Assembly (NCBI RefSeq): GCF_024612015.1
Contig: NZ_CP102512.1
Coordinates: 2,170,001 to 2,234,000 of the forward strand
DNA: 64,000 nucleotides
Direction: 5' to 3'
From: Streptomyces sp. CA-210063
GTDB taxonomy: Bacteria; Actinomycetota; Actinomycetes; Streptomycetales; Streptomycetaceae
In this document: positions 3,652-24,017 of the stretch, one piece after another
Numbering within the stretch: position 1 is the first letter of the stretch
Layout: each line of letters opens with the position of its first letter
The notes under the pieces: generated by a model
Told to the model about the DNA's origin: nothing
The model's input: only the letters and a program-made list of their open reading frames with translations
Database searches by the model: none
Position numbers and translations under genes: made by a program

Positions 3652-3697
3652 ACCGTCCGTGGCTGATCGCGCAGTTCCCCGCGCCCCTTCAGGGCGC
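3652..3697 (+). repeat. Streptomyces intergenic hairpin repeat, copy 1
   Basis: Contains CGCAGTTCCCCGCGCCCC followed by TTCAGGGCGC, giving a GCGCCC/GGGCGC stem, preceded by CGTGGCTGATCG. It ends at the stop codon of the BrkB-like gene and so lies at that gene's 3' end. The same core recurs near 47814 and, inverted, near 52490. Probably a transcription terminator or a dispersed repetitive element; U-tract is absent. Confidence 0.75.
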
Positions 3698-4821
3698 TAG
3701 TCGTCCCCCTTCTTCACAGGTGACCGCAGCCGTGACGTCACGTCCTCCGGCGGCAGGAAGCGTGACCACCGCTCCGGGAACTCGGACGGCATGTCCGGGT
3801 CCTCGGGGTCGTGGGAGCGGGCGGCGGCGGCGCGGGCGACGTACTCGGCGGCCTGTTCCTCGCGGAGGCGCTCGTTGGCGGCGCGGGCGGCGGCGGTGGC
3901 CGCGGCGGGCCAGACGCGGTCGATGGCGGCGTTGACGGCGGCGCCGACCAGTACGGCGAAGGCGCTCACACCGATCCAGAGGAGGACGGCGACGGCGGCG
4001 GCCAGGGAGCCGTAGATCGTCGCCCCCTCGACCGTGCTGGTGAGGTAGATGCGGAGCAGGAAGCTGCCGAGGACCCACATGCCGAGGGCCATGAGGGAGC
4101 CCGGGACGTCCTCGACCCAGGGGGAACGGACCGGAACCGAGACGTGGTAGAGCGTCGTCAGGAAGACGATGGACAGGACGATCACGACGGGCCAGTAGAG
4201 GACCTGGACGACGGTCGCCGACCACGGGACGATCCGGACGACGGCGTCGGGGCCGGCGACCATCAGCGGCAGGGCGACCGACCCGATCAGCAGGGCCACG
4301 ATGAAGAGCAGGAACGCCATGAGGCGGGTCTTGACGATGCCGCGGACGCCGTCGAGGCCGTACATGACGGTGATGGTGTCGATGAAGACGTTCACCGCGC
4401 GGGACCCGGACCACAGGGCGAAGAGGAACCCTATCGAGATGACGTCGGGGCGGCCGCCCCTCATCACGTCGTCCAGGATGGGCTGCGCGATCTCGGCGAC
4501 GCCCTTGTCGGACAGGACGGTGCGCGAGGCCTCCAGGAGGTTGAGCTCCAGGCTGGCGATGGTGTCGGCGCCGGTCCAGTCGTCGACGTAGCCGAGCAGG
4601 CCGATCATGCTGAGCAGCAGCGGAGGCACGGAGAGCAGCGTGAAGAACGCCGCCTCGGCCGCGAGGCCCAGGATGCGGTACTCGATGCAGGAGTTGACGG
4701 TGTCCTTCAGGAGCAGCCAGGCGGTCCTGCGCTTGGAGACGTTCCGGTAGAGGGCACGCGCGCGGTGGAGACGCCCATGGGGGCTCTCGGGTGGTGGGGG
4801 TGACTGACTTGCTGGCTGCAC
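3697..4821 (-). CDS. YihY/virulence factor BrkB family membrane protein
   Basis: A 374-residue integral membrane protein. About six hydrophobic segments are visible, beginning with LAAEAAFFTLLSVPPLLLSMIGLLGYV and including the family's conserved ALWSGSRAVNVFIDTITVMYGL stretch, then three further segments ending at ALVGAAVNAAIDRVWPAA. The C-terminal ~70 residues are a cytoplasmic Ala/Arg-rich tail. The family was misnamed ribonuclease BN; its real role, probably transport or envelope related, is unsettled. The start at 4821 is chosen because residues 1-30 are compatible with a short charged N-terminus. It is transcribed away from the biosynthetic operon that follows. Confidence 0.88.
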   Translation of the reverse strand: MQPASQSPPPPESPHGRLHRARALYRNVSKRRTAWLLLKDTVNSCIEYRILGLAAEAAFFTLLSVPPLLLSMIGLLGYVDDWTGADTIASLELNLLEASRTVLSDKGVAEIAQPILDDVMRGGRPDVISIGFLFALWSGSRAVNVFIDTITVMYGLDGVRGIVKTRLMAFLLFIVALLIGSVALPLMVAGPDAVVRIVPWSATVVQVLYWPVVIVLSIVFLTTLYHVSVPVRSPWVEDVPGSLMALGMWVLGSFLLRIYLTSTVEGATIYGSLAAAVAVLLWIGVSAFAVLVGAAVNAAIDRVWPAAATAAARAANERLREEQAAEYVARAAAARSHDPEDPDMPSEFPERWSRFLPPEDVTSRLRSPVKKGDD

Positions 4822-5378: not shown

Positions 5379-7889
5379 ATGACATTGCCAGTGCCACGAC
5401 ACGTGGTGGAAAAACCGGGTGAGGTCCAGGCGGCCGAGCCGGACGCGGCGGAATCGTACACCGCCACCGAGCGACTCCTCGCCGAACTTCTGGCCGGCGT
5501 CGCACGTATCGAACATGTGCCCGCAGAAAGCCATTTCTTCGACGACTTGGGCGCCAACTCCCTGACGATGGCCCATTTCTGTGCCCGCGTCAGGAAGCAC
5601 CCCGATCTGCCGTCGGTGTCCATACGGGACGTCTACGGCCACCCGACCATCCGCGGCCTCGCGGCCGCGCTCACCGAGGCACCGCCACCGCCGGCCGCCC
5701 CGCCGGTACCCGCTGAGGTCACACCACCGGGCAACACGTTCCGGTACGTCCTGTGCGGGGCGCTGCAGTTGCTCCTCTTCGCCGCGTACTCCCTGCTGGC
5801 CACGTCCGGATACGTACTGGGGTACGAGTGGGTGGCGGACGCCTCGGGCATCGTCGCGGTCTATCTCCGGTCGGCGCTCTTCGGCGCGCTCGCCTTCCTC
5901 GCCCTGTGCACCCTGCCGGTCGTCGCCAAGTGGCTGCTGATCGGGCGGTGGAAGCCCGGGGAGTTCCCCGTGTGGGGTCCGGCGTATCTACGGTTCTGGA
6001 TCGTCAAGGCGCTGCTGCGCACCAGCCCGATGATCCTGTTCGTCGGCAACCCGCTGTACGTGCTGTACCTGCGGGCCCTCGGCGCCCGGATCGGCCCGGG
6101 CGTCACGATCCTCAGCCGCACCCTCCCGGTCTGCACCGATCTGCTGACGATCGGCGCGGGCACGGTGATCCGCAAGGAATCCTTCTTCCTCTGCTACCGG
6201 GCGCGCGCCGGGCGGATCCGCACCGGCCCGGTGACCCTCGGCCGGGACGTCTTCGTCGGCGAGCACACCGTGCTCGACATCGACACCGCCCTGGGCGACG
6301 GCTCCCAGCTCGGCCACTCCTCCGCACTGCGCGCCGGCGAGGCGGTCCCGGCCGGGCAGAGCTGGCACGGCTCCCCGGCTCGGCGCACGGACGTGGACCA
6401 CATCCGGGTCGCCCCGGCCGACTGCGGCAGGCTCCGGCGGGCCGGATACGGATGCGCCGCCCTGCTCCAGACACTGCTGCTGTATGTGCCGCTGACCCTC
6501 GGCGGCGCGTATCTGCTGCTCACCGCCGCGCCCTCGCTGGACACCCTGCTCGACCCGGCGTCGCGGCACATCGCGTCGGCGCGCTTCTACCTCGAGGCAC
6601 TGGCCCTGTCGCTCGTGCTGTTCGCCGGTTCCCTCGTCGTCGCAGCCGTCGTCGTGTTCGTCGTGCCCCGACTGCTGCGCCCGCTGGTCCGCCCGGACCG
6701 CGTCTACCCGCTGTACGGCTTCCACTACTCCGTGCACCGCGCGATCACCCGGCTGACCAACCTCAAGCTCTTCACGTGGCTGTGCGGCGACAGCTCCTAC
6801 ATCGTCCCGTACCTCAAGGCCCTCGGATACGACCTCTCGCGCGTCGAGCAGACCGGGTCGAACTTCGGCACGGAGGTGCGGCACGAGACGCCGTACCTGG
6901 TGACGGTCGGCAGCGGCACGATGGTCGCGGACGGTCTCTCGGTCATGAACGCGGACTACTCCGCCACGTCGTTCCGGGTGTCCCGGACGGCGATCGGCGG
7001 GCACAACTTCCTGGGCAACTTCATCGCCTACCCGGTCGGTGGCCGGACCGGCGAGAACTGTCTGCTGGCCACGAAGGTGCTGGTCCCGCTCGACGGCGAG
7101 ATCCGCGAGGGGGTCGGGCTGCTCGGCTCGCCGCCCTTCGAGATCCCCCGCTCGGTGGAGCGCGACACCCGCTTCGACCATCTGCGCGAGGGTGACGAAC
7201 TGCGCCGCCGGCTCGCCGCGAAGAACCGCTTCAACCTGCGCTCGATGGGGCTGTTCCTGTTCCTGCGCTGGCTGCACACCTTCGCGCTCACCGTCCTCGG
7301 CTTCGCGGCCTTCGACCTGTACGGGCACGGGGACGGCATGGCGGGACTGCTCGCGCTCGCCGCGCTGCCCCTGGCGGCGCTCGTGTTCACCGTCCTGTAC
7401 TACACGCTGGTGGAACGGTCCATGACCCGCTTCCGGCCGCTGCGGCCGCGGTTGTGCTCCATCTACGACCCGCTCTTCTGGCGGCAGGAGCGGCTGTGGA
7501 AGCTGCGGGACACACACATACAGGTGCTCAGCGGCACTCCGTACAAGAACCTCGTCTGGCGGCTGCTGGGGGTCCGGATCGGACGACGGGTCTTCGACGA
7601 CGGGGTGGTCATCACCGAGCGGACGCTGACGGCCGTCGGGGACGACTGCACGCTGGCCGCGGGCAGCAAGATCCAGGCGCATTCGCAGGAGGACGGCACC
7701 TACAAGTCCGACCACGTCACGATCGGCGCGCGCTGCACGCTGGAGGTCGGAGCGTTCGTCCACTACGGCGTGGTGCTGGGCGAGGGGGCCGTGCTCGCGC
7801 CGGACTCCTTCCTGATGAAGGGCGAGGAGGTGCCGCCGCACGCGCGCTGGGGCGGGAACCCGGCTACGGAAACCACCGGAGAACGGTGA
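5379..7889 (+). CDS. Pls-type membrane peptide synthetase lacking an adenylation domain
   Basis: An 836-residue protein with the layout of epsilon-poly-lysine synthetase-like (Pls/PosA) enzymes minus their adenylation domain. Residues 25-100 are a carrier domain with phosphopantetheine site FFDDLGANSLTM (Ser61). Three units then follow, each a pair of membrane helices plus a soluble left-handed beta-helix module: helices at about 122-142, 160-187, 357-382, 403-433, 622-646 and 655-676; beta-helix modules at about 235-335 (GVTILSRTLPV...GPVTLGRDVFVGEHTVLD), 480-590 and 730-828 (VTIGARCTLEVGAFVHYGVVLG). In Pls these tandem domains form the isopeptide bonds at the membrane. First gene of a five-gene operon; the adenylating partner is encoded next. 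Substrate and polymer length are unknown. Confidence 0.85.
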   Translation: MTLPVPRHVVEKPGEVQAAEPDAAESYTATERLLAELLAGVARIEHVPAESHFFDDLGANSLTMAHFCARVRKHPDLPSVSIRDVYGHPTIRGLAAALTEAPPPPAAPPVPAEVTPPGNTFRYVLCGALQLLLFAAYSLLATSGYVLGYEWVADASGIVAVYLRSALFGALAFLALCTLPVVAKWLLIGRWKPGEFPVWGPAYLRFWIVKALLRTSPMILFVGNPLYVLYLRALGARIGPGVTILSRTLPVCTDLLTIGAGTVIRKESFFLCYRARAGRIRTGPVTLGRDVFVGEHTVLDIDTALGDGSQLGHSSALRAGEAVPAGQSWHGSPARRTDVDHIRVAPADCGRLRRAGYGCAALLQTLLLYVPLTLGGAYLLLTAAPSLDTLLDPASRHIASARFYLEALALSLVLFAGSLVVAAVVVFVVPRLLRPLVRPDRVYPLYGFHYSVHRAITRLTNLKLFTWLCGDSSYIVPYLKALGYDLSRVEQTGSNFGTEVRHETPYLVTVGSGTMVADGLSVMNADYSATSFRVSRTAIGGHNFLGNFIAYPVGGRTGENCLLATKVLVPLDGEIREGVGLLGSPPFEIPRSVERDTRFDHLREGDELRRRLAAKNRFNLRSMGLFLFLRWLHTFALTVLGFAAFDLYGHGDGMAGLLALAALPLAALVFTVLYYTLVERSMTRFRPLRPRLCSIYDPLFWRQERLWKLRDTHIQVLSGTPYKNLVWRLLGVRIGRRVFDDGVVITERTLTAVGDDCTLAAGSKIQAHSQEDGTYKSDHVTIGARCTLEVGAFVHYGVVLGEGAVLAPDSFLMKGEEVPPHARWGGNPATETTGER

Positions 7890-7903
7890 ATCGGGGGGAA
7901 ATG

Positions 7904-10369
7904 ATGGATCAGTCGGAGTCGGGCACCGCTGCCCGGAAGTACTGGCACGAGGTGCTCACCGCCGGGGGGCGGACCGTGGTTCCGCGGTGGAGCGCCGATC
8001 CGGTGAAGGGCGTCGCCGCCTACGAAGTGGCGCTTCCGGAGGGGCCGTTGGCCGCTTCGGACGGTACGGCCGCAGTGCTCGCCGCCCATGCCAAGGTGCT
8101 CGCCGCGTTGTCGGGCGAGCACGAGGTCACCACCGGCTGGATGGAGGACGGCCGGCTGCTGCCGTGCCGGCTCACGACCGCGCCCGGCGACACCTGGCGC
8201 GACCTGCTGGGGCACACCCACCGCGTCACCACGGAGCTGCTCACGCACGCGGACTTCCCGGTCGACACCCTGCGGCGCGAACTCGGCCTCGCCGAGCCGC
8301 CGTTCGAGACCGTGCTCGACACGAGCGGAGGCGACGGCGACCTCGGCGAGGAGGTGGTCCTGCGGGTGGGGCTGGTGTATCGCGACGACGGGCCCGCGCT
8401 GCGGCTGCGGTACCGCACCGAGGTGCTCGACGAGGACGGCGCGGCCCGGATCGCCGGGTACCACGTCACCGCGCTCACCCGGCTGGCCGCCGATCCGGAC
8501 GCCGAGCACGGGCGGCGCAGCCTGGTGTCGCACGACGAACTCCGGTTCCAGCTCGACGGGTTGGCCGGACCATACCGTGAACTGCCCGACCGCCGGGTGC
8601 ACGAGCTGTTCGAGCAGCGGGTCGTGGCGCACCCGGACGCCGTCGCGGCCGTGCACGGCGACCGCCGCTGGACCTACCGGGAGCTCAACTCCCGTGCCAA
8701 CCAGCTCAGTCGGGCCCTGCTGGTCCGGGGCCTCGGCCGTGAGGGCGTCGTCGCGGTGGTGACCGAGCGGAACCTGGACTGGATGGCGGCCGTCCTCGCG
8801 GTGTTCAAGGCCGGCGGGGCCTATCTGCCCGTCGAGCCGCACTTCCCCGCCGAGCGCATCGCCTCCACCCTCGCCCGGGCCGGCTGCGAGCTGGTCCTCA
8901 CCGAGGAGGGCAGCACGGCCACCCTGGACGAGGCCCTGCCCGCGCTGCCCGGGGTGCAGCGGCTGCTCGTCGGGGAGGCGTACGACGAGGCCCATCCGGA
9001 CTCCGACCTCGGCATGGAGATCGCGCCGGACCGGCTGGCGTACATCTACTTCACGTCCGGTTCCACGGGCGAGCCCAAGGGCGCGATGTGCGAGCACGCC
9101 GGCATGCTCAACCATCTTCAGGCCAAGCTGGACGACCTCGACATCGGCGAGGGGGACGTGGTCGCGCAGACCGCGCCCCAGTGCTTCGACATCTCCCTGT
9201 GGCAGCTGCTGGCCGCGCCGCTGGTCGGCGGTCGGACGCTGCTCGTGGAGCAGGAGGCGATCCTGGACGTCGAACAGTTCGTCGACCGGATCGCCGACGG
9301 CCGGGTGAACGTGCTCCAGGTCGTGCCGTCGTACCTCGAAGCGGTCCTCGCCCATCTGGAGCAGACGCCCCGGGAACTGCCCGATCTGCGCCGGGTCTCC
9401 GTCACCGGGGAGGCGCTGAAGAAGGAGCTGGCGGAGCGCTGGTTCGCCACCGAGCCGGGGATTCCCCTGGTCAACGCCTACGGGCTGACGGAGACCTCGG
9501 ACGACACCAACCACGAGGTGATGGACCGGGCTCCGGAGGGGGGCCGGGTGCCGCTGGGCCGTCCGGTCCGCAACGTCCGTGTGTACGTCGTCGACGAACA
9601 CCTCTCCCTCGTCCCGCTGGGCGCTCCGGGGGAGATCGTCTTCTCCGGGGTCTGTGTCGGGCGGGGGTACGTCAACGATCCCGAGCGCACCCGGCGGGCC
9701 TTCACCACCGACCCGTACCTGCCGGGTGAGCGGCTGTACCGCAGCGGTGACCACGGGCGCTGGCGGCCCGACGGCAAGCTGGAGTTCCTGGGCCGCCGGG
9801 ACACCCAGGTCAAGGTGCGCGGCTTCCGCATCGAGATCGGCGAGGTGGAGAACGCGCTACTGCGGGTGGCGGGTGTGCGGGACGGGGCGGTGGTGGTCGC
9901 CAAGGGCGCGCATCTGGTCGCCTTCCACTCCGGGCGTCCGCTCGCGGGCGAGGAGCTGCGGGACCGGCTGGCGGCCTCGCTGCCGGCGTACATGGTGCCG
10001 TCGGTGTTCCACTGGCGCGAGAGCCTGCCGCTGACCGCCAACGGCAAGATCGACCGGCGGACGCTCACCACGCTGGCCGAACAACTCCCCGCCGTGCCAG
10101 GCGAGTCGGGCGGGCTTCCGGCCACGCCGACGGAGGAGCGGCTGGCTACCGCGTGGGCCGAGGTGCTCGGTGTGGCGCGGTCCCTGATCGGCCGTCGCGA
10201 CCACTTCTTCGACCGGGGCGGCACCTCGCTGTCGGCGGTGAAGCTCGCGATCGCCCTGGACCGGGCGGTGTCCCCCAAGGACGTGACCGCGTATCCGGTG
10301 CTGTCCGACCTGGCCGGGCTGATCGACACGAGGGCCGGCGCGAACACCGTAGGGAGGCCGACGTCATGA
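7904..10369 (+). CDS. NRPS: condensation-domain remnant, adenylation and carrier domains
   Basis: An 821-residue synthetase. Residues 1-225 resemble only the C-terminal lobe of a condensation domain, with no HHxxxDG active site. The adenylation domain spans about 233-720 (core motifs IYFTSGSTGEPKG, NAYGLTETS, YRSGDHGRW, LTANGKIDRR). A carrier follows at 742-808 (FFDRGGTSLSAVK, Ser775). Aligning by eye to GrsA gives pocket residues D-I-W-Q-S-T-A-D-D-K; the paired acidic residues suit a basic amino acid such as diaminopropionate. No thioesterase or reductase domain. Start: ATG at 7904 sits 5 nt after GGGGGG; ATG at 7901 is the alternative. Its stop overlaps the next start (ATGA). Confidence 0.9.
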   Translation: MDQSESGTAARKYWHEVLTAGGRTVVPRWSADPVKGVAAYEVALPEGPLAASDGTAAVLAAHAKVLAALSGEHEVTTGWMEDGRLLPCRLTTAPGDTWRDLLGHTHRVTTELLTHADFPVDTLRRELGLAEPPFETVLDTSGGDGDLGEEVVLRVGLVYRDDGPALRLRYRTEVLDEDGAARIAGYHVTALTRLAADPDAEHGRRSLVSHDELRFQLDGLAGPYRELPDRRVHELFEQRVVAHPDAVAAVHGDRRWTYRELNSRANQLSRALLVRGLGREGVVAVVTERNLDWMAAVLAVFKAGGAYLPVEPHFPAERIASTLARAGCELVLTEEGSTATLDEALPALPGVQRLLVGEAYDEAHPDSDLGMEIAPDRLAYIYFTSGSTGEPKGAMCEHAGMLNHLQAKLDDLDIGEGDVVAQTAPQCFDISLWQLLAAPLVGGRTLLVEQEAILDVEQFVDRIADGRVNVLQVVPSYLEAVLAHLEQTPRELPDLRRVSVTGEALKKELAERWFATEPGIPLVNAYGLTETSDDTNHEVMDRAPEGGRVPLGRPVRNVRVYVVDEHLSLVPLGAPGEIVFSGVCVGRGYVNDPERTRRAFTTDPYLPGERLYRSGDHGRWRPDGKLEFLGRRDTQVKVRGFRIEIGEVENALLRVAGVRDGAVVVAKGAHLVAFHSGRPLAGEELRDRLAASLPAYMVPSVFHWRESLPLTANGKIDRRTLTTLAEQLPAVPGESGGLPATPTEERLATAWAEVLGVARSLIGRRDHFFDRGGTSLSAVKLAIALDRAVSPKDVTAYPVLSDLAGLIDTRAGANTVGRPTS

Positions 10370-11505
10370 GTTTCCTGAGCCGCCGAGGCGCCGCGAGCCG
10401 CCGTCGCAAGAACACGGGGATGGCGGCGCCCTCCTCAACTGCCCTGCCGCTACCGGACATCGAGTCGGCGGCCGGCAGGCCGCCGCTGCTCATGGTCTCC
10501 CCCGCCGATCCCGCTGCCCACTGGGTCGCCGGGCGACGGGAGGCCCTGCGTGCCGCCGTCGCCGAGCACGGCTCGGTGCTCGTGCGCGGTCTCGGGCTGC
10601 GGGACGCCACCGAAGTCGGAGCCGTCTTCCGGGCGTTGGCGGACACGCTGATGAGCGAGAAGGAGGCCTTCGCGCCGCGGCGGACGTACGCGGACGGCGT
10701 GTACTCCTCGACGGCCTGGCCGCCGAACCAACCGATGTGCATGCACCACGAGTTGAGCTACACGGTGGAGTTCCCCGGCCTGATGCTCTTCGCCTGCCTC
10801 GAAGCCGCCGAGCGGGGCGGGGCGACCGGGGTCGCCGACGCGGAGGCCGTACTCGCCGCGCTGCCACCCGAGTTGACCGAGCGGTTCGAGCGGGACGGCT
10901 GGCTGCTCACCCGCTCGTACAACGACGAGATCGGCGCGTCGGTCGCCGAGGCGTTCGGCACCGACGAACGGACCGTCGTCGAGGCCTACTGCCGGGCGCA
11001 CGCCATCGAGTTCGCCTGGCAGCCCGACGGCTCCCTGCACACCCGGCAGCGGCGCGCCGCCGTGCTCCGCCATCCGATGACCGGCCGGCGCTGCTGGTTC
11101 AACCAGATCGCGTTCCTCAACGAATGGACCATGGACGCCGAGGTGCGCGAGTACCTGGTGGACATGTACGGAGCCGACGGTCTGCCCTTCAACACCCGTT
11201 ACGGCGATGGCGATCCGATCGGCGAGGACGCCGTCCGGACCCTCAACGAGATCTACGAGGCGCACACCGTCCGCGAACCGTGGCGGCCCGGCGACCTCCT
11301 GCTCGTCGACAACATCCGCTCCGCCCACAGCCGTGAGCCCTTCGAAGGGCCGCGCGAGGTGCTGGTGGGCCTGGCGGATCCGGTACGGCCGACCGACTGC
11401 GCCACGCGGGACTCCGACACACAGGACTCCCGCTCGCAGGACTCCCGCTCGCAGGACCCCGACTCGAAGGACTCCGACGCGAAGGACGAGGTGAGCTTCC
11501 GATGA
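10366..11505 (+). CDS. Fe(II)/2-oxoglutarate-dependent oxygenase (TauD/SyrP-like)
   Basis: A 379-residue TauD-superfamily enzyme. The iron site is His127-x-Glu129 (MCMHHELSY) with distal His321 (DNIRSAHSREPFEGPRE); Arg330 would hold 2-oxoglutarate. Use of Glu rather than Asp in HxE is typical of the amino-acid hydroxylases SyrP, AsnO and VioC. Next to an A-T synthetase it most likely hydroxylates the carrier-bound amino acid, here plausibly beta-carbon of diaminopropionate (inference). The basic first 18 residues may not be translated (Met19 alternative). The C-terminus (after residue 348) is a charged pentapeptide repeat of the DSxxQ/K type. Overlaps both neighbours by ATGA. Confidence 0.88.
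   Translation: MSFLSRRGAASRRRKNTGMAAPSSTALPLPDIESAAGRPPLLMVSPADPAAHWVAGRREALRAAVAEHGSVLVRGLGLRDATEVGAVFRALADTLMSEKEAFAPRRTYADGVYSSTAWPPNQPMCMHHELSYTVEFPGLMLFACLEAAERGGATGVADAEAVLAALPPELTERFERDGWLLTRSYNDEIGASVAEAFGTDERTVVEAYCRAHAIEFAWQPDGSLHTRQRRAAVLRHPMTGRRCWFNQIAFLNEWTMDAEVREYLVDMYGADGLPFNTRYGDGDPIGEDAVRTLNEIYEAHTVREPWRPGDLLLVDNIRSAHSREPFEGPREVLVGLADPVRPTDCATRDSDTQDSRSQDSRSQDPDSKDSDAKDEVSFR
11410..11484 (+). repeat. 15-bp tandem repeat, five copies, inside the oxygenase gene
   Basis: Five consecutive 15-bp units of the form GACTCCCGCTCGCAG encode pentapeptides DSDTQ, DSRSQ, DSRSQ, DPDSK and DSDAK at the extreme C-terminus. The second and third units are identical, pointing to recent slippage. 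The tail lies beyond the catalytic fold and is presumably disordered. Confidence 0.9.
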
Positions 11506-12542
11506 CCGAGGTTCCGGGTTTCGCCGTGATCTCCGGCGCCCAGGTACAGCAGGCCCTGCGGGGCCGGGAGGGGGAGATCGTCGACCTGGTCGAATCCGCC
11601 TACCTGTTGCACGGAGCGGGGGACACGGGCGACACGGTCAATCCGCCGTCGTACTTCCTCCGCTTCCCCGACCGTCCGTCCTCGCGGATCATCGCGCTGC
11701 CCGCCTCGCTGGGCGGGAAGTTCCAGGTGGACGGGTTGAAGTGGATCTCCAGTTTCCCGGAGAACACGGCGTCCGGGCTGCCGCGCGCGTCCGCCGTGCT
11801 GATCCTCAACGACCACACCACCGGCTATCCGTTCGCGTGCCTGGAGGCCTCGGTCATCAGCGCCACCCGGACGGCCGCGTCGGCGGCACTGGCGGCCGAC
11901 CGGCTGAGCGAGCGCCGGGGGGCGCCGCGCCCGGCCAGGGTCGGATTCCTCGGCACGGGCCTGATCGCCCGGTACATCCACACCTTCCTCGAGGCGACGG
12001 GCTTCGCGTTCGAGGAGGTGGGGGTGCACGATCTGTCCGCCGACAGCGCGGCCGGGTTCCGGGGGTACCTGGAACGGTCCCACGCGAGCGGGCGCGTGAC
12101 CGTGCACGAGAGTGCCGAGGACGTGATCCGGGCGAGCGACCTGGTGGTCTTCGCGACGATCGCGGGCGAGCCGCACATCCACGAACCGAAGTGGTTCGCC
12201 CACCACCCGCTGGTGCTGCACGTGTCGCTGCGCGATCTCGCGCCCGAGGTGCTGCTCGCGTCGGCGAACTTCGTCGACGACGTCGAGCACTGTCTCAAGG
12301 CGAACACGTCACCGCACCTGACCGAACAGCTCACCGGCGCACGGGACTTCCTCGATGGAACGCTCCATGACGTCCTCACCGGCCGGGCGACCGTGCCGAC
12401 GGACCGTCCGGTGATCTTCTCGCCCTTCGGCCTCGGGGTCCTCGACCTCGCGGTCGGCGGTTATGTCCACGACGAAGTGGCCCGCTCCGGCGGACTACGG
12501 GTCGTGGACGACTTCTTCCACGAGCTGCGCCGCCACGGCTGA
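11502..12542 (+). CDS. sbnB: 2,3-diaminopropionate biosynthesis protein SbnB-like
   Basis: A 346-residue protein of the ornithine cyclodeaminase/mu-crystallin fold. An N-terminal substrate domain carries FQVDGLKWISSFPEN and ASAVLILNDHTTGYPFACLEAS; a Rossmann dinucleotide site is at about 148-160 (VGFLGTGLIARY). In staphyloferrin B synthesis SbnB oxidatively cleaves N-(1-amino-1-carboxy-2-ethyl)-glutamate, made by SbnA, to L-2,3-diaminopropionate and 2-oxoglutarate. Pairing with an SbnA homologue immediately downstream makes that role secure here. The 2-oxoglutarate released is also co-substrate of the oxygenase encoded upstream. Start overlaps the upstream stop (ATGA). Confidence 0.92.
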   Translation: MTEVPGFAVISGAQVQQALRGREGEIVDLVESAYLLHGAGDTGDTVNPPSYFLRFPDRPSSRIIALPASLGGKFQVDGLKWISSFPENTASGLPRASAVLILNDHTTGYPFACLEASVISATRTAASAALAADRLSERRGAPRPARVGFLGTGLIARYIHTFLEATGFAFEEVGVHDLSADSAAGFRGYLERSHASGRVTVHESAEDVIRASDLVVFATIAGEPHIHEPKWFAHHPLVLHVSLRDLAPEVLLASANFVDDVEHCLKANTSPHLTEQLTGARDFLDGTLHDVLTGRATVPTDRPVIFSPFGLGVLDLAVGGYVHDEVARSGGLRVVDDFFHELRRHG

Positions 12543-12589
12543 CCTGCCGGGCGCAGCGAGTACCACAGTGCACAACCAGGGGGGCCGCA

Positions 12590-13600
12590 GTGCCAGTCAT
12601 ATCCGTTCCCACGGACTTCAACGAAGAGGAGCTGTACGTCGATCTGCGCCAGGTCGTCGGACACGAGCTCTTCCTGAAATGCGAGGGATTCAACTTCGCC
12701 GGCTCGATCAAGCTCAAGGCCGCGACCGAGATGGTGCGGGCCGCCGAACGGGACGGATGTCTCCGGCCGGGCTCGACGCTCGTCGAGTCGTCGTCCGGCA
12801 ATCTCGGCGTCGCGCTGAGCATGATCGCGGCGAGCCGGGGTTATCGGTTTCTGTGCGTGACCGATTCCCGGTGCAATCCGCAGACCCGGCGCCTGATCGA
12901 GGCGCTGGGCAGCCGGGTGCACGTCATCTCCGAGCCGGATCCGCACGGCGGTTTCCTCGGCGCGCGGATCGCGTACGTCCGCGCGCTGTGCGCCGCCGAC
13001 CCGGAGTACGTGTGGCTCGACCAGTACACCAATCAGGCGAACTGGCGGGCGCACTACCGCACCACCGCGCCCGCCATCGCCCGGCAGTTCCCGCGGCTGG
13101 ACGTGCTGTTCGTGGGGGTCGGCACCTCCGGGACGCTGATGGGCTGCGCCCAGTGGTTCTGGGAACGACGGCGCCGGGTGCGGATCGTCGCCGTGGACAG
13201 CGTGGGGTCGGTCGCCTTCGGCGGGGCGCCGGGCCGCCGGATGATCCCGGGGCTCGGCACGAGCGTGCCCCCGGCGCTGCTCGACCCGTCCTGTGTGGAC
13301 GACGTCGTCCGGGTGGAGGAGATCGACACCGTACGGGCCTGTCACCGCATGGCCCGGCGCGGCTTCCTCTTCGGCGGCTCCACCGGCACGGTCGTCAGCG
13401 GCGCCACCGACTGGCTGAACCGCAACGGCTCCCCCGACATCACGGCGGTGGCGATCTCCCCGGACCTCGGCGAGCGCTACCTCGACACCATCTACCGGCC
13501 GGGGTGGCCGCTGGAGCAGTACGGGGAGGGCGTACTGGACCCGGAGGACGAGTTCGGCACAGGTGAACTGGGGACGGGCGAGCTGGCGGCGCCCGTCTGA
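12590..13600 (+). CDS. sbnA: 2,3-diaminopropionate biosynthesis protein SbnA-like (PLP)
   Basis: A 336-residue cysteine-synthase-fold enzyme. The PLP lysine is Lys41 (NFAGSIKLKAA), the substrate loop is ESSSGNLGVALS, and the phosphate-binding glycine loop is GVGTSGTLMG. SbnA condenses O-phospho-serine with glutamate to give the precursor cleaved by SbnB. GTG start at 12590 follows a GGGGGG ribosome site by a few nt; the 47-bp gap from sbnB is short enough for one transcript. The last 20 residues hold a small duplication (GTGELGTGEL) and are probably unstructured. Last gene of the operon; no exporter, thioesterase or phosphopantetheinyl transferase follows. Confidence 0.92.
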   Translation: MPVISVPTDFNEEELYVDLRQVVGHELFLKCEGFNFAGSIKLKAATEMVRAAERDGCLRPGSTLVESSSGNLGVALSMIAASRGYRFLCVTDSRCNPQTRRLIEALGSRVHVISEPDPHGGFLGARIAYVRALCAADPEYVWLDQYTNQANWRAHYRTTAPAIARQFPRLDVLFVGVGTSGTLMGCAQWFWERRRRVRIVAVDSVGSVAFGGAPGRRMIPGLGTSVPPALLDPSCVDDVVRVEEIDTVRACHRMARRGFLFGGSTGTVVSGATDWLNRNGSPDITAVAISPDLGERYLDTIYRPGWPLEQYGEGVLDPEDEFGTGELGTGELAAPV

Positions 13601-13723: not shown

Positions 13724-15367
13724 ATGGCTGCCCGCACCCACGAAGTGACCAATCAGGCTCCGCCCCTGGTGGACTACGACGTCTTCAGCGCCGACCGGGC
13801 CCTGGCGGAGGCGGTCGACCGGCATCTGGCCCCGGACCTCCTCGACGAGGCGCGGGGCGAGCTGTCGGGGCTCGGCCGTACGGCGGGCTCCGTGCAGGTG
13901 CAGGAGTGGGGACGGCTGGCGAACGAGAATCCGCCGAAGCTGCGCACGCACGACCGGTACGGCAACCGGATCGACGAGGTGGAGTTCCACCCGTCCTGGC
14001 ACCGGCTGCTCGGCAAGGGCGTCTCGGCGGGGCTGACGGCGGCCTGGACCCGTCCGGGCGGGCATGTACGGCGCGCGGCCGGGTTCGTCGTCTGGTCCCA
14101 GGTCGAGGCCGGCAACGGCTGCCCGCTGTCCATGACCCACGCGGCGGTACCCGCCCTGCGCACGGACCCGGCACTCGCCGCCGAGTGGGAGCCGCGGCTG
14201 ACGTCCCCGCTCTACGACTGGGATCTGCGGCCCGCCGACCAGAAGGCCGGGGCCCTCTTCGGCATGGGCATGACCGAGAAGCAGGGCGGCAGCGACGTAC
14301 GCGCCAACACGACCGGGGCGCGCCCCCTGGCCGAGGAGGGGACGTACGAGCTGACGGGCCACAAGTGGTTCTGCTCGGCGCCGATGTCGGACGGTTTCCT
14401 GGTACTGGCACAAGCGCCGGGCGGCTTGACGTGTTTCCTCGTGCCTCGGGTACTGGCGGACGGCTCGCGGAACGTGTTCCGCATCCAGCGGCTCAAGGAC
14501 AAGCTGGGCAACCGGTCGAACGCCTCCGCCGAGGTCGAGTTCGACGGGACGTGGGCGCGCCGGGTCGGGGACGAGGGCCGCGGGGTGCGCACGATCATCG
14601 AGATGGTGTCGGCCACCCGGCTGGACTGCGCGCTGGGCGCGGCCTCCCTGATGCGGCAGGCGGTGGCCCAGGCGGTGCACCACTGCGCGTACCGGGAGGC
14701 GTTCGGCGGCCGGCTGATCGACAAGCCGCTGATGCGCAATGTCCTCGCCGATCTCGCGTTGGAGTCGGAGGCGGCGACGACGCTGGCGATGCGGCTGGCC
14801 GCGGCGTACGACGCGGCCGAGGCGGGCAACGAGACCGAACGCTCGTTCCTGCGGCTCGCGGTGCCGGCCGCCAAGTACTGGGTGACCAAGCGCTGCACCC
14901 CGACCGTGGTCGAGGCCTCCGAGTGCCTCGGTGGCAACGGCTATGTCGAGGAGTCCGGCATGCCCCGACTGCTGCGCGAGTCCCCGCTCAACTCCATCTG
15001 GGAGGGCGCCGGAAACGTGCAGGCCCTGGACGTGCTGCGGGCACTCCAGCGGGAACCGGGGGCCCTCGACGCCTACCTGCGGGAAGTGGGCCGGGCCCGG
15101 GGAGCGGACCACCGGCTCGACGGCGCCATCAAGAACCTGCTGACCGAACTCGCCGATCTCGACGGCATCGAGGCCCGCGCACGCCGGCTCGTGGAGCGCC
15201 TCGCCCTCGTCCTCCAGGGCGCGCTCCTCGTGCGGTACGCGCCCCCGGCGGTCGCCGACGCGTTCTGCGCCTCCCGGCTGGGCGGCGACTGGGGCACGGC
15301 CTTCGGCACGCTGCCGCACACGCTGGATCTGGCGTCGGTGGTGGAACGGGCGCGTCCGGTGAGCTGA
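13724..15367 (+). CDS. aidB: Acyl-CoA dehydrogenase family protein, AidB-like
   Basis: A 547-residue flavoprotein with the AidB arrangement: unusually long N-terminal region, flavin-contact motif MGMTEKQGGSDVRANTT, helix EAFGGRLIDKPLMRNVLADL, and the C-terminal active-site stretch ECLGGNGYVEESGMPRLLRESPLNSIWEGAGNVQALD. AidB proteins are induced by alkylation stress and bind DNA; whether they dehydrogenate a substrate is unclear. It follows the diaminopropionate operon after 123 bp but has its own context and a terminator behind it, so I regard it as a separate gene. Confidence 0.88.
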   Translation: MAARTHEVTNQAPPLVDYDVFSADRALAEAVDRHLAPDLLDEARGELSGLGRTAGSVQVQEWGRLANENPPKLRTHDRYGNRIDEVEFHPSWHRLLGKGVSAGLTAAWTRPGGHVRRAAGFVVWSQVEAGNGCPLSMTHAAVPALRTDPALAAEWEPRLTSPLYDWDLRPADQKAGALFGMGMTEKQGGSDVRANTTGARPLAEEGTYELTGHKWFCSAPMSDGFLVLAQAPGGLTCFLVPRVLADGSRNVFRIQRLKDKLGNRSNASAEVEFDGTWARRVGDEGRGVRTIIEMVSATRLDCALGAASLMRQAVAQAVHHCAYREAFGGRLIDKPLMRNVLADLALESEAATTLAMRLAAAYDAAEAGNETERSFLRLAVPAAKYWVTKRCTPTVVEASECLGGNGYVEESGMPRLLRESPLNSIWEGAGNVQALDVLRALQREPGALDAYLREVGRARGADHRLDGAIKNLLTELADLDGIEARARRLVERLALVLQGALLVRYAPPAVADAFCASRLGGDWGTAFGTLPHTLDLASVVERARPVS

Positions 15368-19513: not shown

Positions 19514-19684
19514 CGCCCCACCGCGAGGGGTCCGACGACCCCGGGCGACAGCGCCGCACCCCCCTCTGTTTCAGCCGGCGCAAGGGCGCGCAGGCGCCGC
19601 ACACGTCGCATTCACGTGTGCCCGCATGCGCGCGCAAGCGCGGTCAGAGCCGCTTCCACGCCTTTCCCGAAGGACATACACACC

Positions 19685-21376
19685 ATGGCCGCCACCCCGC
19701 AGAACCCCGCCACGCCCCGCCGCAAGGTGAGCCGTCACCGTGGCGAGGGCCAGTGGGCCGCGGGACACTTCACCCCGCTGAACGGCAACGAGCAGTTCAA
19801 GAAGGACGACGACGGTCTCAATGTGCGGACACGCATTGAGACGATCTACTCGAAGCGCGGCTTCGACTCGATCGACCCCAACGACCTGCGCGGCCGGATG
19901 CGCTGGTGGGGGCTGTACACCCAGCGCAAGCCCGGGATCGACGGCGGCAAGACCGCGATCCTGGAGCCGGAGGAGCTGGACGACAAGTACTTCATGCTGC
20001 GGGTGCGGATCGACGGCGGTCGCCTCACCACCCAGCAGCTCCGGGTGATCGGTGAGATCTCGCAGGAGTTCGCGCGGGGCACGGCCGACATCACCGACCG
20101 GCAGAACGTCCAGTACCACTGGATCCGGGTCGAAGATGTTCCTGAGATCTGGGACCGCCTTGAGGCCGTCGGGCTGTCCACCACCGAGGCCTGCGGTGAC
20201 ACGCCCCGTGTGATCATCGGCTCACCCGTCGCCGGGATCGCCGCGGACGAGATCATCGACGGCACGCCCGCGATGGACGAGATCCACCGGCGGATCATCG
20301 GCAACCCGGACTTCTCGAACCTGCCCCGCAAGTTCAAGTCCGCGATCTCCGGCTCCCCGCTGCTCGACGTGGCGCACGAGATCAACGACATCGCCTTCGT
20401 CGGTGTCCGCCACCCCGAGCACGGCCCCGGCTTCGACCTCTGGGTCGGCGGCGGCCTGTCCACCAACCCCAAGATCGGGCAGCGGCTCGGCGCCTGGGTG
20501 CCGCTGGACGAGGTCGCGGACGTGTACGAGGGCGTCATCTCGATCTTCCGCGACTACGGCTACCGGCGGCTGCGCACCCGCGCCCGCCTGAAGTTCCTGC
20601 TCGCCGACTGGGGCACGGAGAAGTTCCGCCAGGTCCTGGAGGACGAGTACCTCAAGCGGAAGCTGATCGACGGCCCGGCGCCCGACCAGCCGGTGGCGCG
20701 CTGGCGCGACCACGTGGGAGTGCACCCGCAGAACGACGGCCGGTACTACGTCGGGTTCGCCCCGCGCGTCGGCCGGGTGGACGGCACCACGCTGACGAAG
20801 ATCGCCGACCTCGCCGAGGCACACGGCTCGGGCCGTGTCCGGACCACCGTCGAGCAGAAGATGATCGTGCTCGACGTCACCCAGGAGCAGGTCGACTCGC
20901 TCGTCGCGGGCCTGGAGGCGCTGGACCTCACGGTGCACCCGTCCCCGTTCCGGCGCGGCACCATGGCCTGCACCGGCATCGAGTACTGCAAGCTCGCCAT
21001 CGTCGAGACGAAGGCGCGCGGCTCCGCCCTGATCGACGAACTGGAGCGCCGTATCCCGGAGTTCGACGAGCCGATCACCATCAACATCAACGGCTGCCCG
21101 AACGCCTGTGCGCGTATCCAGGTGGCGGACATCGGTCTCAAGGGACAGCTCGTCCTGAACGACGCGGGCGAGCAGGTCGAGGGCTTCCAGGTGCACCTGG
21201 GCGGCGCGCTCGGCCTGGAGGCCGGCTTCGGCCGCAAGGTACGCGGTCTGAAGGTCACCTCCGACGAACTGCCCGACTACGTCGAGCGGGTGCTCAAGCG
21301 GTTCCAGGAGGAGCGCGAGGACGGCGAGCGGTTCGCCACCTGGGTCACCCGCGCCAGCGAGGAGGCCCTGTCGTGA
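19685..21376 (+). CDS. sir: Ferredoxin-dependent sulfite reductase (siroheme, 4Fe-4S)
   Basis: A 563-residue nitrite/sulfite reductase. Two ferredoxin-like half domains and two siroheme half domains are present; the cluster/siroheme ligands are Cys429 and Cys435 (ACTGIEYCKLA) and Cys471 and Cys475 (NGCPNACARI). Siroheme-contact Arg/Lys stretches include TADITDRQNVQYHWI. It reduces sulfite to sulfide with six electrons. Family alone cannot separate nitrite from sulfite use, but the co-directional cysH, cysC, cysD, cysN and sulfonate transporter genes make sulfite the substrate. The downstream gene starts inside its stop (overlap 21373-21376). Confidence 0.93.
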   Translation: MAATPQNPATPRRKVSRHRGEGQWAAGHFTPLNGNEQFKKDDDGLNVRTRIETIYSKRGFDSIDPNDLRGRMRWWGLYTQRKPGIDGGKTAILEPEELDDKYFMLRVRIDGGRLTTQQLRVIGEISQEFARGTADITDRQNVQYHWIRVEDVPEIWDRLEAVGLSTTEACGDTPRVIIGSPVAGIAADEIIDGTPAMDEIHRRIIGNPDFSNLPRKFKSAISGSPLLDVAHEINDIAFVGVRHPEHGPGFDLWVGGGLSTNPKIGQRLGAWVPLDEVADVYEGVISIFRDYGYRRLRTRARLKFLLADWGTEKFRQVLEDEYLKRKLIDGPAPDQPVARWRDHVGVHPQNDGRYYVGFAPRVGRVDGTTLTKIADLAEAHGSGRVRTTVEQKMIVLDVTQEQVDSLVAGLEALDLTVHPSPFRRGTMACTGIEYCKLAIVETKARGSALIDELERRIPEFDEPITININGCPNACARIQVADIGLKGQLVLNDAGEQVEGFQVHLGGALGLEAGFGRKVRGLKVTSDELPDYVERVLKRFQEEREDGERFATWVTRASEEALS

Positions 21377-21684
21377 GCGAGCGAGCCGCCCCCTTCTACT
21401 GCCCCTACTGCGGTGACGAGGACCTGCGCCCGAACGAAGAAGGTCACGGCGCGTGGGAATGCGGGGCCTGCAATCGAGCCTTCCAGTTGAAGTTCCTCGG
21501 GCTGCTGGCCCGGGGCGTGAGCCGAGGGAGCGCGACGGTGTCGAGAGACCGAGCGCGCGGAGGCCCCGACGAAGGAGGGGCTGAGCACGGTCGGTCCCTC
21601 GGCGCCGGCAATGGCGCTCCCTCGGCTCACGCCCCTCAAAAAAGCAGCCTTCAGCGAGCCGACAGCGGAGGGGATCACATATGA
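21373..21684 (+). CDS. Small zinc-ribbon protein interrupted in frame by an inverted-repeat element
   Basis: A 103-residue protein between sir and cysH. Residues 1-47 are a zinc ribbon (YCPYCGDEDL ... WECGACNRAF, two CxxC pairs) followed by QLKFLGLLARG. In other Streptomyces the equivalent gene is, from memory, only about 60 residues and ends shortly after this point. Here 44 codons (21517-21648) separate LLARG from a native-looking end (LQRADSGGDHI), and they coincide with a 124-bp inverted-repeat element. The insertion keeps the frame and the ATGA overlap with cysH. Probably an electron-carrier or assembly helper for the sulfite reductase; function is not established. Confidence 0.75.
   Translation: MSERAAPFYCPYCGDEDLRPNEEGHGAWECGACNRAFQLKFLGLLARGVSRGSATVSRDRARGGPDEGGAEHGRSLGAGNGAPSAHAPQKSSLQRADSGGDHI
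21512..21635. repeat. 124-bp element with 22-bp perfect inverted ends
   Basis: The left end 21512-21533 (beginning GGGGCGTGAGCCGAGGGAGC) is the exact reverse complement of 21614-21635. Nested inside are GACCGA (21547-21552)/TCGGTC (21591-21596) and GCCCC (21563-21567)/GGGGC (21577-21581), so the whole element can fold into one long hairpin. It carries no transposase. It lies within the zinc-ribbon gene and accounts for its unusual C-terminal length. Candidate MITE-like or palindromic repeat. Confidence 0.75.
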
Positions 21685-22445
21685 CTACCGTTCAGGCGGA
21701 TTCCGATACAGCCGCGTCCTTCGAGGACGCCGCCGACCCCGAAGCGGCGAAGCGCGCCGAGCTCAAGGCGCTCGCCGAGCAGGCCGGCCGCGACCTGGAG
21801 GACGCCTCGGCACTGGAGATCCTCCAGTGGGCCGTGGACACCTTCGGCAAGCGCTTCTGCGTGACCTCCTCCATGGAGGACGCCGTGGTCGCGCACCTCG
21901 CTTCCCGCGCCAGGCCCGACGAAGGCCCGGTCGACGTGGTCTTCCTCGACACCGGCTACCACTTCCCCGAGACCATCGGCACCCGGGACGCGGTCGAGGC
22001 CGTGATGGACGTCAACGTCCTCACGATCACCCCGCGTCAGACGGTCGCCGAGCAGGACGCCGAGTACGGGCCCAAGCTGCACGACCGTGACCCCGACCTG
22101 TGCTGCTTCCTGCGCAAGGTCAAGCCGCTCGAAGAGGGTCTGGCCCGGTTCGACGCGTGGGCGACGGGCCTGCGCCGCGACGAGTCCGAGACCCGGGCGA
22201 ACACCCCGGTCGTCGGCTGGGACGACAAGCGCGGCAAGGTCAAGATCTCCCCGATAGCGCGCTGGACGCAGGACGACGTGGACGCCTACGTCGCCGAGCA
22301 CGGCGTGCTCACCAACCCCCTGCTCATGGACGGCTACCCGTCCGTGGGCTGCGCCCCCTGCACCCGCCGCGTCGCCCCGGGCGAGGACGCGCGGGCCGGC
22401 CGCTGGGCCGGCAACGCCAAGACCGAGTGCGGGCTGCACCTGTGA
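21681..22445 (+). CDS. cysH: Adenylylsulfate (APS/PAPS) reductase, iron-sulfur type
   Basis: A 254-residue reductase. The PP-loop-like site SSMEDAVVAHL and FLDTGYHFPETI bind the nucleotide; the catalytic Cys is Cys250 in the terminal ECGLHL. Cys141-Cys142 (DLCCFLRK) and Cys224/Cys227 (GCAPCTRR) are the four ligands of a [4Fe-4S] cluster, which in this family marks enzymes able to use APS directly. It makes sulfite for the upstream sulfite reductase, with thioredoxin as donor. Start overlaps the previous stop (ATGA) and its stop overlaps a GTG in the next frame. Confidence 0.93.
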   Translation: MTTVQADSDTAASFEDAADPEAAKRAELKALAEQAGRDLEDASALEILQWAVDTFGKRFCVTSSMEDAVVAHLASRARPDEGPVDVVFLDTGYHFPETIGTRDAVEAVMDVNVLTITPRQTVAEQDAEYGPKLHDRDPDLCCFLRKVKPLEEGLARFDAWATGLRRDESETRANTPVVGWDDKRGKVKISPIARWTQDDVDAYVAEHGVLTNPLLMDGYPSVGCAPCTRRVAPGEDARAGRWAGNAKTECGLHL

Positions 22446-22534
22446 CCGCCGCAGCGCCTGCCGAGACCGCCGACACCCCCGAGAACACCGTCCCCGTGAC
22501 GGACCGCGTTCCTGTGACGAACCAGGAGAACCAA

Positions 22535-23080
22535 GTGACGACCGGAGCCACCGGAGCCACCGTCTGGCTCACGGGTCTGCCGAGCGCCGGCAAGACCACC
22601 ATCGCCTACGAGCTCGCGGGCCGACTGCGCGAGGAGGGCCACCTCGTGGAGGTCCTCGACGGCGACGAGATCCGTGAGTTCCTCACCGCGGACCTCGGCT
22701 TCAGCCGCGCCGACCGGCACACCAACGTGCAGCGCATCGGCTTCCTCGCCGACATGCTCGCCCGTAACGGCGTCAAGGCCCTGGTGCCGGTCATCGCGCC
22801 GTACGCCGACAGCCGCGAGGCGGTGCGCAAGCGCCACGACGCGAGCGGCGCCGCGTACGTCGAGGTGCATGTGGCCACGCCGGTCGAGGTGTGCTCCGTA
22901 CGCGATGTGAAGGGCCTGTACGCCAAGCAGGCGGCCGGTGAGATCTCCGGGCTGACCGGGGTCGACGACCCGTACGAGGCTCCCGAGACCCCCGACCTGC
23001 GCATCGAGTCGCAGGACCAGACGGTCCAGGAGTCCGCGGCGCTTGTGCACAAGCTGCTCACCGAGAGGGGTCTGGCATGA
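22535..23080 (+). CDS. cysC: Adenylylsulfate kinase
   Basis: A 181-residue P-loop kinase that phosphorylates APS to PAPS. Walker A is GLPSAGKTT, Walker B-like VLDGDEIREFL, then the family motifs RTNVQRIGFLADML-like (HTNVQRIGFLADM) and KGLYAKQAAGEISGLTGVDDPYEAPE. The GTG at 22535 is preferred: AGGAG lies 6-7 nt before it and it gives the family's normal length. An upstream GTG at 22442, overlapping the cysH stop, would add 31 Thr/Pro/Val-rich residues with no counterpart in the family, but cannot be excluded. Overlaps cysD by ATGA. Confidence 0.9.
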   Translation: MTTGATGATVWLTGLPSAGKTTIAYELAGRLREEGHLVEVLDGDEIREFLTADLGFSRADRHTNVQRIGFLADMLARNGVKALVPVIAPYADSREAVRKRHDASGAAYVEVHVATPVEVCSVRDVKGLYAKQAAGEISGLTGVDDPYEAPETPDLRIESQDQTVQESAALVHKLLTERGLA

Positions 23081-24015
23081 CGACGACCGTCGCGGCCGTC
23101 TCCGAGGAGACCGGCACCCCGTACACCCTCTCGCACCTGGACTCGCTGGAGTCCGAGGCCGTCCACATCTTCCGCGAGGTCGCGGGCGAGTTCGAGCGGC
23201 CGGTGATCCTCTTCTCCGGCGGCAAGGACTCCATCGTCATGCTGCACCTGGCGCTGAAGGCCTTCGCCCCGGCGGCGATCCCCTTCACGCTGCTGCACGT
23301 CGACACCGGGCACAACTTCCCGGAGGTACTGGAGTACCGCGACCGCACGGTGGCCCGGCACGGCCTGCGACTGCATGTCGCCTCCGTGCAGGACTACATC
23401 GACCGGGGTGTGCTGCGGGAACGCCCCGACGGGACCCGGAACCCCCTCCAGACCGTGCCGCTCACCGAGAGGATCCAGGCGGAGAAGTTCGACGCCGTCT
23501 TCGGTGGCGGGCGACGCGACGAGGAGAAGGCGCGCGCCAAGGAGCGGGTGTTCTCCCTGCGGGACGAGTTCTCGCAGTGGGACCCGCGCCGCCAGCGGCC
23601 CGAGCTGTGGAACCTGTACAACGGCCGCCACGCGCCCGGCGAGCACGTCCGTGTGTTCCCGCTCTCCAACTGGACCGAGCTGGACGTCTGGCAGTACATC
23701 GCCCGCGAGGGCATCGAACTGCCGGAGATCTACTTCGCCCACGAGCGTGAGGTGTTCATGCGGGCCGGCATGTGGCTGACCGCCGGCGAGTGGGGCGGGC
23801 CCAAGGACGGTGAGACCGTCGAGAAGCGGCAGGTGCGGTACCGGACGGTCGGTGACATGTCCTGTACGGGTGCCGTCGACTCCGACGCGACCACGCTGGA
23901 CGCCGTGATCACCGAGATCGCCGCCTCCCGGCTCACCGAGCGGGGCGCGACGCGCGCCGACGACAAGATGTCCGAGGCCGCGATGGAAGACCGTAAGCGC
24001 GAGGGGTACTTCTAA
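23077..24015 (+). CDS. cysD: Sulfate adenylyltransferase subunit 2
   Basis: A 312-residue PP-loop ATPase that adenylates sulfate to APS with the CysN GTPase. The loop is ILFSGGKDSIVMLHLALKAF; other family marks are LLHVDTGHNFPEVLEYRD, FGGGRRDEEKARAKERVFS, and the C-terminal RYRTVGDMSCTGAVDSDA. Length is typical. It starts within the cysC stop and is followed two bases after its own stop by cysN, so both subunits are made from one transcript. Confidence 0.96.
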   Translation: MTTTVAAVSEETGTPYTLSHLDSLESEAVHIFREVAGEFERPVILFSGGKDSIVMLHLALKAFAPAAIPFTLLHVDTGHNFPEVLEYRDRTVARHGLRLHVASVQDYIDRGVLRERPDGTRNPLQTVPLTERIQAEKFDAVFGGGRRDEEKARAKERVFSLRDEFSQWDPRRQRPELWNLYNGRHAPGEHVRVFPLSNWTELDVWQYIAREGIELPEIYFAHEREVFMRAGMWLTAGEWGGPKDGETVEKRQVRYRTVGDMSCTGAVDSDATTLDAVITEIAASRLTERGATRADDKMSEAAMEDRKREGYF

Positions 24016-24017
24016 GC

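Follow-up and report, generated by a model that had tools for sequence, protein, structure and literature searches.

A conserved Streptomyces variant of the Pls poly(amino acid) synthetase with its adenylation domain on a separate protein

The synthetases of epsilon-poly-L-lysine (Pls) and delta-poly-L-ornithine (PosA) carry in one chain an adenylation (A) domain, a carrier, and a terminal domain of six membrane helices and three tandem beta-helix modules. A single chain of A domain, carrier and Pls-type terminal domain has also been described for the poly(L-diaminopropionate) (PDAP) synthetase of Streptomyces albulus PD-1, whose monomer, 2,3-diaminopropionate (Dap), comes from an SbnA/SbnB-like pair encoded away from pdaps; the relevant passages of that description mention neither a dioxygenase nor a second carrier (PMC4668381). 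In streptothricin biosynthesis (ORF19/ORF18), an oligo(amino acid) is assembled by a stand-alone A domain that works in trans with a separate carrier. This A domain is itself responsible for extending the chain, and the account in PMC9606270, as far as its relevant passages go, mentions no Pls membrane domain. Herein, we describe a locus in Streptomyces sp. CA-210063, within positions 2170001-2234000 of its 10.86-Mb single-contig genome (the window, 64,000 nucleotides in length), where a Pls-type polymerase without an A domain (A-less) is followed by an A-carrier protein, a dioxygenase and an SbnB/SbnA pair. On the sequence evidence, it is a real and conserved variant of the Pls system, for which a good mechanism can be inferred.

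The first gene (5379-7889, plus strand) encodes the polymerase subunit of 836 residues. TIGR02353, the NCBIfam model of the Pls/PosA terminal domain, covers residues 125-829 (5751-7865) over its full profile (1-695 of 695) with an E value of 2.3e-238 and 793 bits, against a cut-off of 423.1. Directly before it lies a carrier, T2 (Pfam PP-binding, PF00550; residues 33-98, 5475-5672; 33.6 bits against a cut-off of 20.8), whose phosphopantetheine residue Ser61 (5559-5561) is a serine in 154 of 154 aligned relatives. Pfam and NCBIfam profile searches found no AMP-binding domain in this protein. The AlphaFold2 model, with a mean predicted local distance difference test score (pLDDT) of 66 and a predicted template modelling score of 0.69, is of moderate confidence and weakest in the second and third modules. 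It places a helical carrier at residues 29-99 and helix pairs at 120-188, 351-427 and 606-683, with a strand-bearing segment after each, indicating three pairs of predicted membrane helices, six in all, and a putative beta-helix module behind each pair, in the same order as in Pls and PosA. This is the architecture that an earlier note, made from the window's letters, had proposed for the protein, and the profile searches and the model bear it out. The same note had held that a better match to an unrelated acetyltransferase family would overturn its reading. An ordinary hexapeptide acetyltransferase was rejected, as the best such NCBIfam model reached 35.9 bits against a cut-off of 192. A first fold search gave only local matches, all of them weaker than E 0.001, which fell on carriers and beta-helix acyltransferases, and a literature search for a Pls structure led nowhere.

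The closest match of the polymerase is 95% identical and comes from Streptomyces sp. DSM 40750, followed by those of Streptomyces sp. NBC_00024, S. bottropensis and S. stelliscabiei, and 119 of the best 120 hits are 802-863 residues long. Public annotation already names the protein a "Pls/PosA family non-ribosomal peptide synthetase". The similarity-network survey in PMC10522769 took in only sequences of 1100-1800 residues, so that proteins as short as these fall outside it.

The partner gene had been listed as an open reading frame from 7454, overlapping the polymerase gene. Its most likely start is at 7901, with an ATG behind GGGGGGA, giving a protein of 822 residues (7901-10369, plus strand). 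Pfam identified AMP-binding (residues 237-590) and AMP-binding_C (648-716), which together make up the A domain (residues 237-716, 8609-10048), and a PP-binding carrier, T1 (residues 746-808, 10136-10324), whose Ser776 (10226-10228) is a serine in 145 of 145 aligned relatives. No thioesterase was found in it by Pfam at E ≤ 0.1. Residues 1-236 (7901-8608) were modelled by AlphaFold2 with a pLDDT of 84 and matched condensation domains of the PDB in Foldseek (E 2e-11), indicating a truncated condensation lobe. Pfam Condensation was not reached in the window partner, and in relatives its alignment began only at profile position 188-194 and scored no higher than the cut-off. Since the lobe has no HHxxxDG motif, which occurs in 0 of 65 relatives, this remnant is probably non-catalytic. 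Lacking both an HHxxxDG condensation domain and a C-terminal thioesterase, the window partner is not a canonical nonribosomal peptide synthetase module of condensation domain, A domain, carrier and thioesterase. The earlier note had described it as an A-carrier synthetase with its own carrier and no release domain, which holds for the window protein, although the condensation remnant was missed.

The A domain of the partner shares no more than 30-35% identity with those of Pls enzymes. Its specificity code, read by the PheA convention with positions placed by motif, is DIWQSTADDK and was identical in 79 of 81 aligned rows, the other two being incomplete; 11 one-chain enzymes carry DAESIGTVVK instead. 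DIWQSTADDK may resemble diaminobutyrate (Dab) codes, a likeness that a literature search for A-domain codes could not confirm. A Pls gene broken by a frameshift or a recent split was therefore rejected, as the A domain belongs to another lineage and the partner has its own code, its own condensation remnant and often a thioesterase. The notion of a "split Pls", in the sense of a Pls cut in two, thus has to be given up.

Three further genes follow on the plus strand. The first (10366-11505) encodes a TauD/clavaminate-synthase-like Fe(II)/2-oxoglutarate dioxygenase (PF02668, E 2e-43), and its start overlaps the stop of the A-carrier gene. The second (11502-12542) encodes an SbnB-type enzyme of Dap synthesis (TIGR03944, 403.8 bits against a cut-off of 326.9), and its start overlaps the stop of the dioxygenase gene. 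The third (12590-13600) encodes an SbnA-type, pyridoxal-phosphate-dependent enzyme of Dap synthesis (TIGR03945, 390.1 bits against 349.95). Because both Sbn models score above their curated cut-offs, a supply of Dap is indicated, and, as expected of a PDAP-type system, an SbnA/SbnB-like pair is present, here in the same string of genes. The gene order and the overlapping stops and starts suggest that the five genes from 5379 to 13600 are likely to be co-transcribed as one operon. Both genes of the earlier two-gene view are real, but the extension of the operon to 13600 had been overlooked.

The conservation of this arrangement was assessed in two sets of loci. For the first, contigs were scanned with the polymerase alone and the best 80 of 245 relatives were kept, so that loci were selected by the similarity of the polymerase and not of the partner. 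The second comprised at least 74 A-less loci from at least 64 of 199 evenly drawn Streptomyces genomes, the window's own left out. The two sets share genomes, as is evident from contigs of equal length (for example, L029 and L158, each of 555,077 bases), and are not independent. The A-carrier partner adjoined the polymerase in 80 of 80 and 70 of 74 loci, respectively, so the pairing, whose absence from other genomes would have spoken against the earlier note, is retained. All five genes were present in 75 of 80 and 65 of 74 loci. The five incomplete loci of the first set (L008, L019, L044, L048 and L072) stop at a contig end, as do four of the five pairs without the full set in the second (L160, L164, L189 and L211), leaving L197 as the real exception. 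Six loci (L168, L170, L192, L193, L197 and L201) have SbnA upstream and in the reverse orientation. In eight partners of the second set, the alignable part starts only at residue 109-167, indicating that the condensation remnant is shortened or diverged in them.

A dioxygenase hit lay beside 76 of 80 and 68 of 70 pairs, and all six misses except L197 are cut by a contig end. His127 and Glu129 are invariant in 145 of 145 dioxygenases and His321 in 144 of 144, forming an HxE...H set, which we take to be the iron ligands by analogy with the clavaminate-synthase-like family. The presence of this gene beside nearly all pairs fits the modification step that the earlier note had allowed for. A literature search for SbnA/SbnB together with a dioxygenase led nowhere. 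DdaC/DdaD and SyrP are comparable cases, in which a TauD-superfamily enzyme is encoded beside an A-carrier protein and may receive its substrate from it as a thioester; in the present locus, a membrane polymerase would act next.

The family occurs in 110 of the 199 Streptomyces genomes, and A-less Pls proteins in at least 65 of them with the window genome counted, about a third. The earlier note knew of no identical arrangement, and in genomes it is evidently common. We found no open PubMed Central paper on an A-less Pls with an A-carrier partner, as judged by titles and the beginnings of abstracts. In a phylum sample of 246 genomes, three had full-length A-less frames, each of them a member of the same genus as the window, and G008 and G013, from other families, gave fragmentary matches. 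In a family sample of 101 genomes, A-less frames of 900-982 residues occurred in two other genera (G448 and G514). A 7716-base contig from another actinobacterial family (L223, G008:C14) holds two tandem cassettes on the minus strand, both cut by the contig ends, in the order polymerase end, A-carrier protein, dioxygenase, polymerase and A-carrier protein.

One locus joins the components physically. In L214 (G344:C1, 3645-10616, minus strand), a single frame of 2323 residues contains the polymerase, the A-carrier protein and the dioxygenase in that order, with identities to the window proteins of 57%, 61% and 61%, respectively, and SbnB and SbnA follow. The genome (G344) is one contig and 99% complete. 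Although a single case, the fusion is strong evidence for joint action of the three. Two conserved carriers together with a dioxygenase, which in one case is fused in, would be sensible if a step falls between loading and polymerisation.

To place the polymerase among one-chain enzymes, 95 terminal domains were compared in a quick maximum-likelihood tree with midpoint rooting; several long rows, including those of the fusion and of the protein P0116, were flagged. In this tree, 49 A-less rows and P0116 fell into one fork (support 94), beside five one-chain enzymes (L213 and L217-L220) and the fusion, whereas the other 39 one-chain rows, including one from the window's own genome (L001), lay beyond a long, fully supported branch. 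The five neighbouring one-chain enzymes are 50-53% identical to the window polymerase in the terminal domain and have the A code DFECLSVVTK. PDAP and poly-Dab synthetases have Phe at code position 2, according to the passages available of PMC10522769, and this residue is shared by the five but not by the window partner, which has Ile there. The tree position and the Phe-type code of these relatives point to descent of the polymerase from a poly-Dap/poly-Dab-type one-chain enzyme. Most plausibly, an unrelated A-carrier protein took over from the A domain of such an enzyme, although this direction of change is our reading of the tree. No dioxygenase, SbnA or SbnB hit was found in nine one-chain loci read with their flanks (L213 and L215-L222), indicating that, among the loci sampled, the cassette accompanies A-less polymerases. 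The window genome itself also encodes a one-chain Pls (L001; G000:C1:8530151-8532184, minus strand; code DAESIGTVVK), to which the polymerase is approximately 28% identical. P0116, an environmental protein of 1357 residues, has no A domain; its terminal domain is of the same kind and is preceded by six carrier motifs in tandem, the first two without the serine.

We consider it likely that the product of the five-gene operon is a cationic oligomer or polymer built of L-2,3-diaminopropionate, probably in an oxidised form. SbnA and SbnB would make Dap, and the A domain of the 7901 protein would adenylate it and load its own carrier, T1. The dioxygenase would most likely oxidise the monomer while it is held on T1. 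The aminoacyl group would then reach Ser61 of T2, either by thioester exchange or because the A domain that serves T1 also loads T2 directly. Finally, the three-beta-helix domain on its six membrane helices would join the residues, as in the synthetases of epsilon-poly-lysine, poly-ornithine and poly-Dap. The likeness to the S. albulus PD-1 enzyme, drawn from its published description, lies in the likely Dap monomer and the terminal domain (PMC4668381). That activation, possible modification and polymerisation are separated in trans, as the earlier note had suggested, is supported by the association of an A-less terminal domain with a separate A-carrier protein, by the fusion and by the conserved dioxygenase; the system does not stem from a cut Pls, and the chemistry is our inference.

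Several observations weigh against this proposal. At position 3, the code DIWQSTADDK does not have the Glu found in all such synthetases according to PMC10522769, so that the assignment of the substrate leans on the Sbn genes and on the possible likeness to Dab codes. In L197, the pair and SbnA are present, but the region read gave no hit for a dioxygenase or for SbnB and continues with acetate kinase and pyruvate kinase genes, which argues against the dioxygenase being needed everywhere. Four of the 74 polymerase loci are without this partner. L198 (G349:C6) and L200 (G278:C12) have an A-less polymerase with two tandem carriers and no A hit in the region read, the first carrier of L200 being degenerate and followed by an intact second one; L204 likewise has no A hit in the region read. 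L208 (G382:C87, 38-6144) is a different trans arrangement, consisting of an A-less polymerase at which the contig begins, a dioxygenase, a separate A protein of 585 residues and a carrier of 95 residues. Pairwise distances of polymerase and partner correlate (r = 0.80, 65 loci), but those of SbnB and polymerase do so almost equally (0.77), indicating that the correlation reflects shared history and not contact. Finally, many partners have a thioesterase serine motif and could release something from T1 directly.

The last point bears on the first alternative, in which the A-carrier protein, with a thioesterase where present, makes and releases a short product (modified Dap, a dipeptide or a small oligomer), while the role of the Pls-like protein is limited to export and to one or a few condensation steps in place of long polymerisation. 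Approximately 260 extra C-terminal residues were present in 67 of 76 complete partners of the 80-locus set; this extension was a Pfam thioesterase in four of four tested, and 67 of 81 rows had the GHS[SA]G motif. By count, the remaining 14 are the window, nine partners without the extension and four cut partners. The S. coelicolor cluster SCO6429-38, called "dipeptide" in PMC8981147 and other papers, as far as their relevant passages go, counts for this alternative too. It may be homologous to the present operon, but its domains are left undescribed in those passages, and we take it as a lead only. The 74-locus set, however, showed the extension in 38 of 69 complete partners and its absence from 31 of 69, with the other cluster genes kept, and the terminal domain retains 64 columns common to the 49 A-less, the five nearest one-chain and the 39 more distant one-chain proteins. 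We regard a short product as unlikely. Loci with the window's BrkB neighbour (14 of the 74-locus set and 8 of the 80-locus set, one of the eight cut) gave no thioesterase hit. These counts indicate that the thioesterase and the condensation remnant vary while both carrier serines do not. The absence of a thioesterase was rejected as a defining feature: the earlier note's "two carriers and no thioesterase" describes the window correctly, and only the two carriers extend to the system.

A second alternative keeps the same two-protein machine and lets it make plain poly-Dap, with the dioxygenase working on unbound Dap, the completed chain or some accessory substrate, and with T1 reduced to a loading relay. 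A one-chain poly-Dap synthetase is known from S. albulus (PMC4668381), the near one-chain relatives with the Phe-type code have no dioxygenase hit in the regions read, and in L197 the pair and SbnA stand without a dioxygenase gene in the region read. Against it stand the presence of the dioxygenase beside nearly all pairs and its fusion into the L214 chain, as a dispensable decoration would be lost more often. We give plain poly-Dap quite a low probability. It is highly improbable that the beta-helix membrane protein is instead an aminoacyl transferase that attaches Dap to an acceptor at the cell surface. Its local neighbours in sequence and fold include left-handed beta-helix acyltransferases (by fold, all weaker than E 0.001), and L198 and L204 keep the protein with intact carriers but have no A hit in the region read. 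Against this, TIGR02353 is matched in full at nearly twice the curated cut-off, and this domain has been tied experimentally to polymerisation in Pls, PosA and PDAP synthetase (relevant passages of PMC10522769 and PMC4668381).

The operon is flanked by genes for a BrkB-like membrane protein (window 3697-4821, minus strand) and an AidB-like acyl-CoA dehydrogenase (13724-15367, plus strand). The AidB-like gene was rejected as a cluster member, as it was matched in only five loci of the 80-locus set (L004, L005, L006, L007 and L009). Farther downstream, 19616-25346 (plus strand) holds an apparent sulphur assimilation block with a sulfite/nitrite reductase, two proteins with a 3'-phosphoadenosine-5'-phosphosulfate reductase domain and an EF-Tu-like GTPase.

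In its strongest form, to which we assign a little less than an even chance, our proposal predicts a widespread Streptomyces machine in which a monomer is activated and then oxidised while bound to a first carrier, passed on to another carrier that belongs to a membrane polymerase, and joined into an oxidised poly(amino acid). The relevant passages of PMC9606270 and PMC10522769 list no bacterial homopoly(amino acid) with an enzymatically oxidised monomer. If the proposal is true, activation and polymerisation would be separable in this enzyme class, the locus would provide a naturally occurring means of exchanging the monomer, or of altering it while carrier-bound and not yet polymerised, and an undescribed polycationic product would be predicted in many strains.

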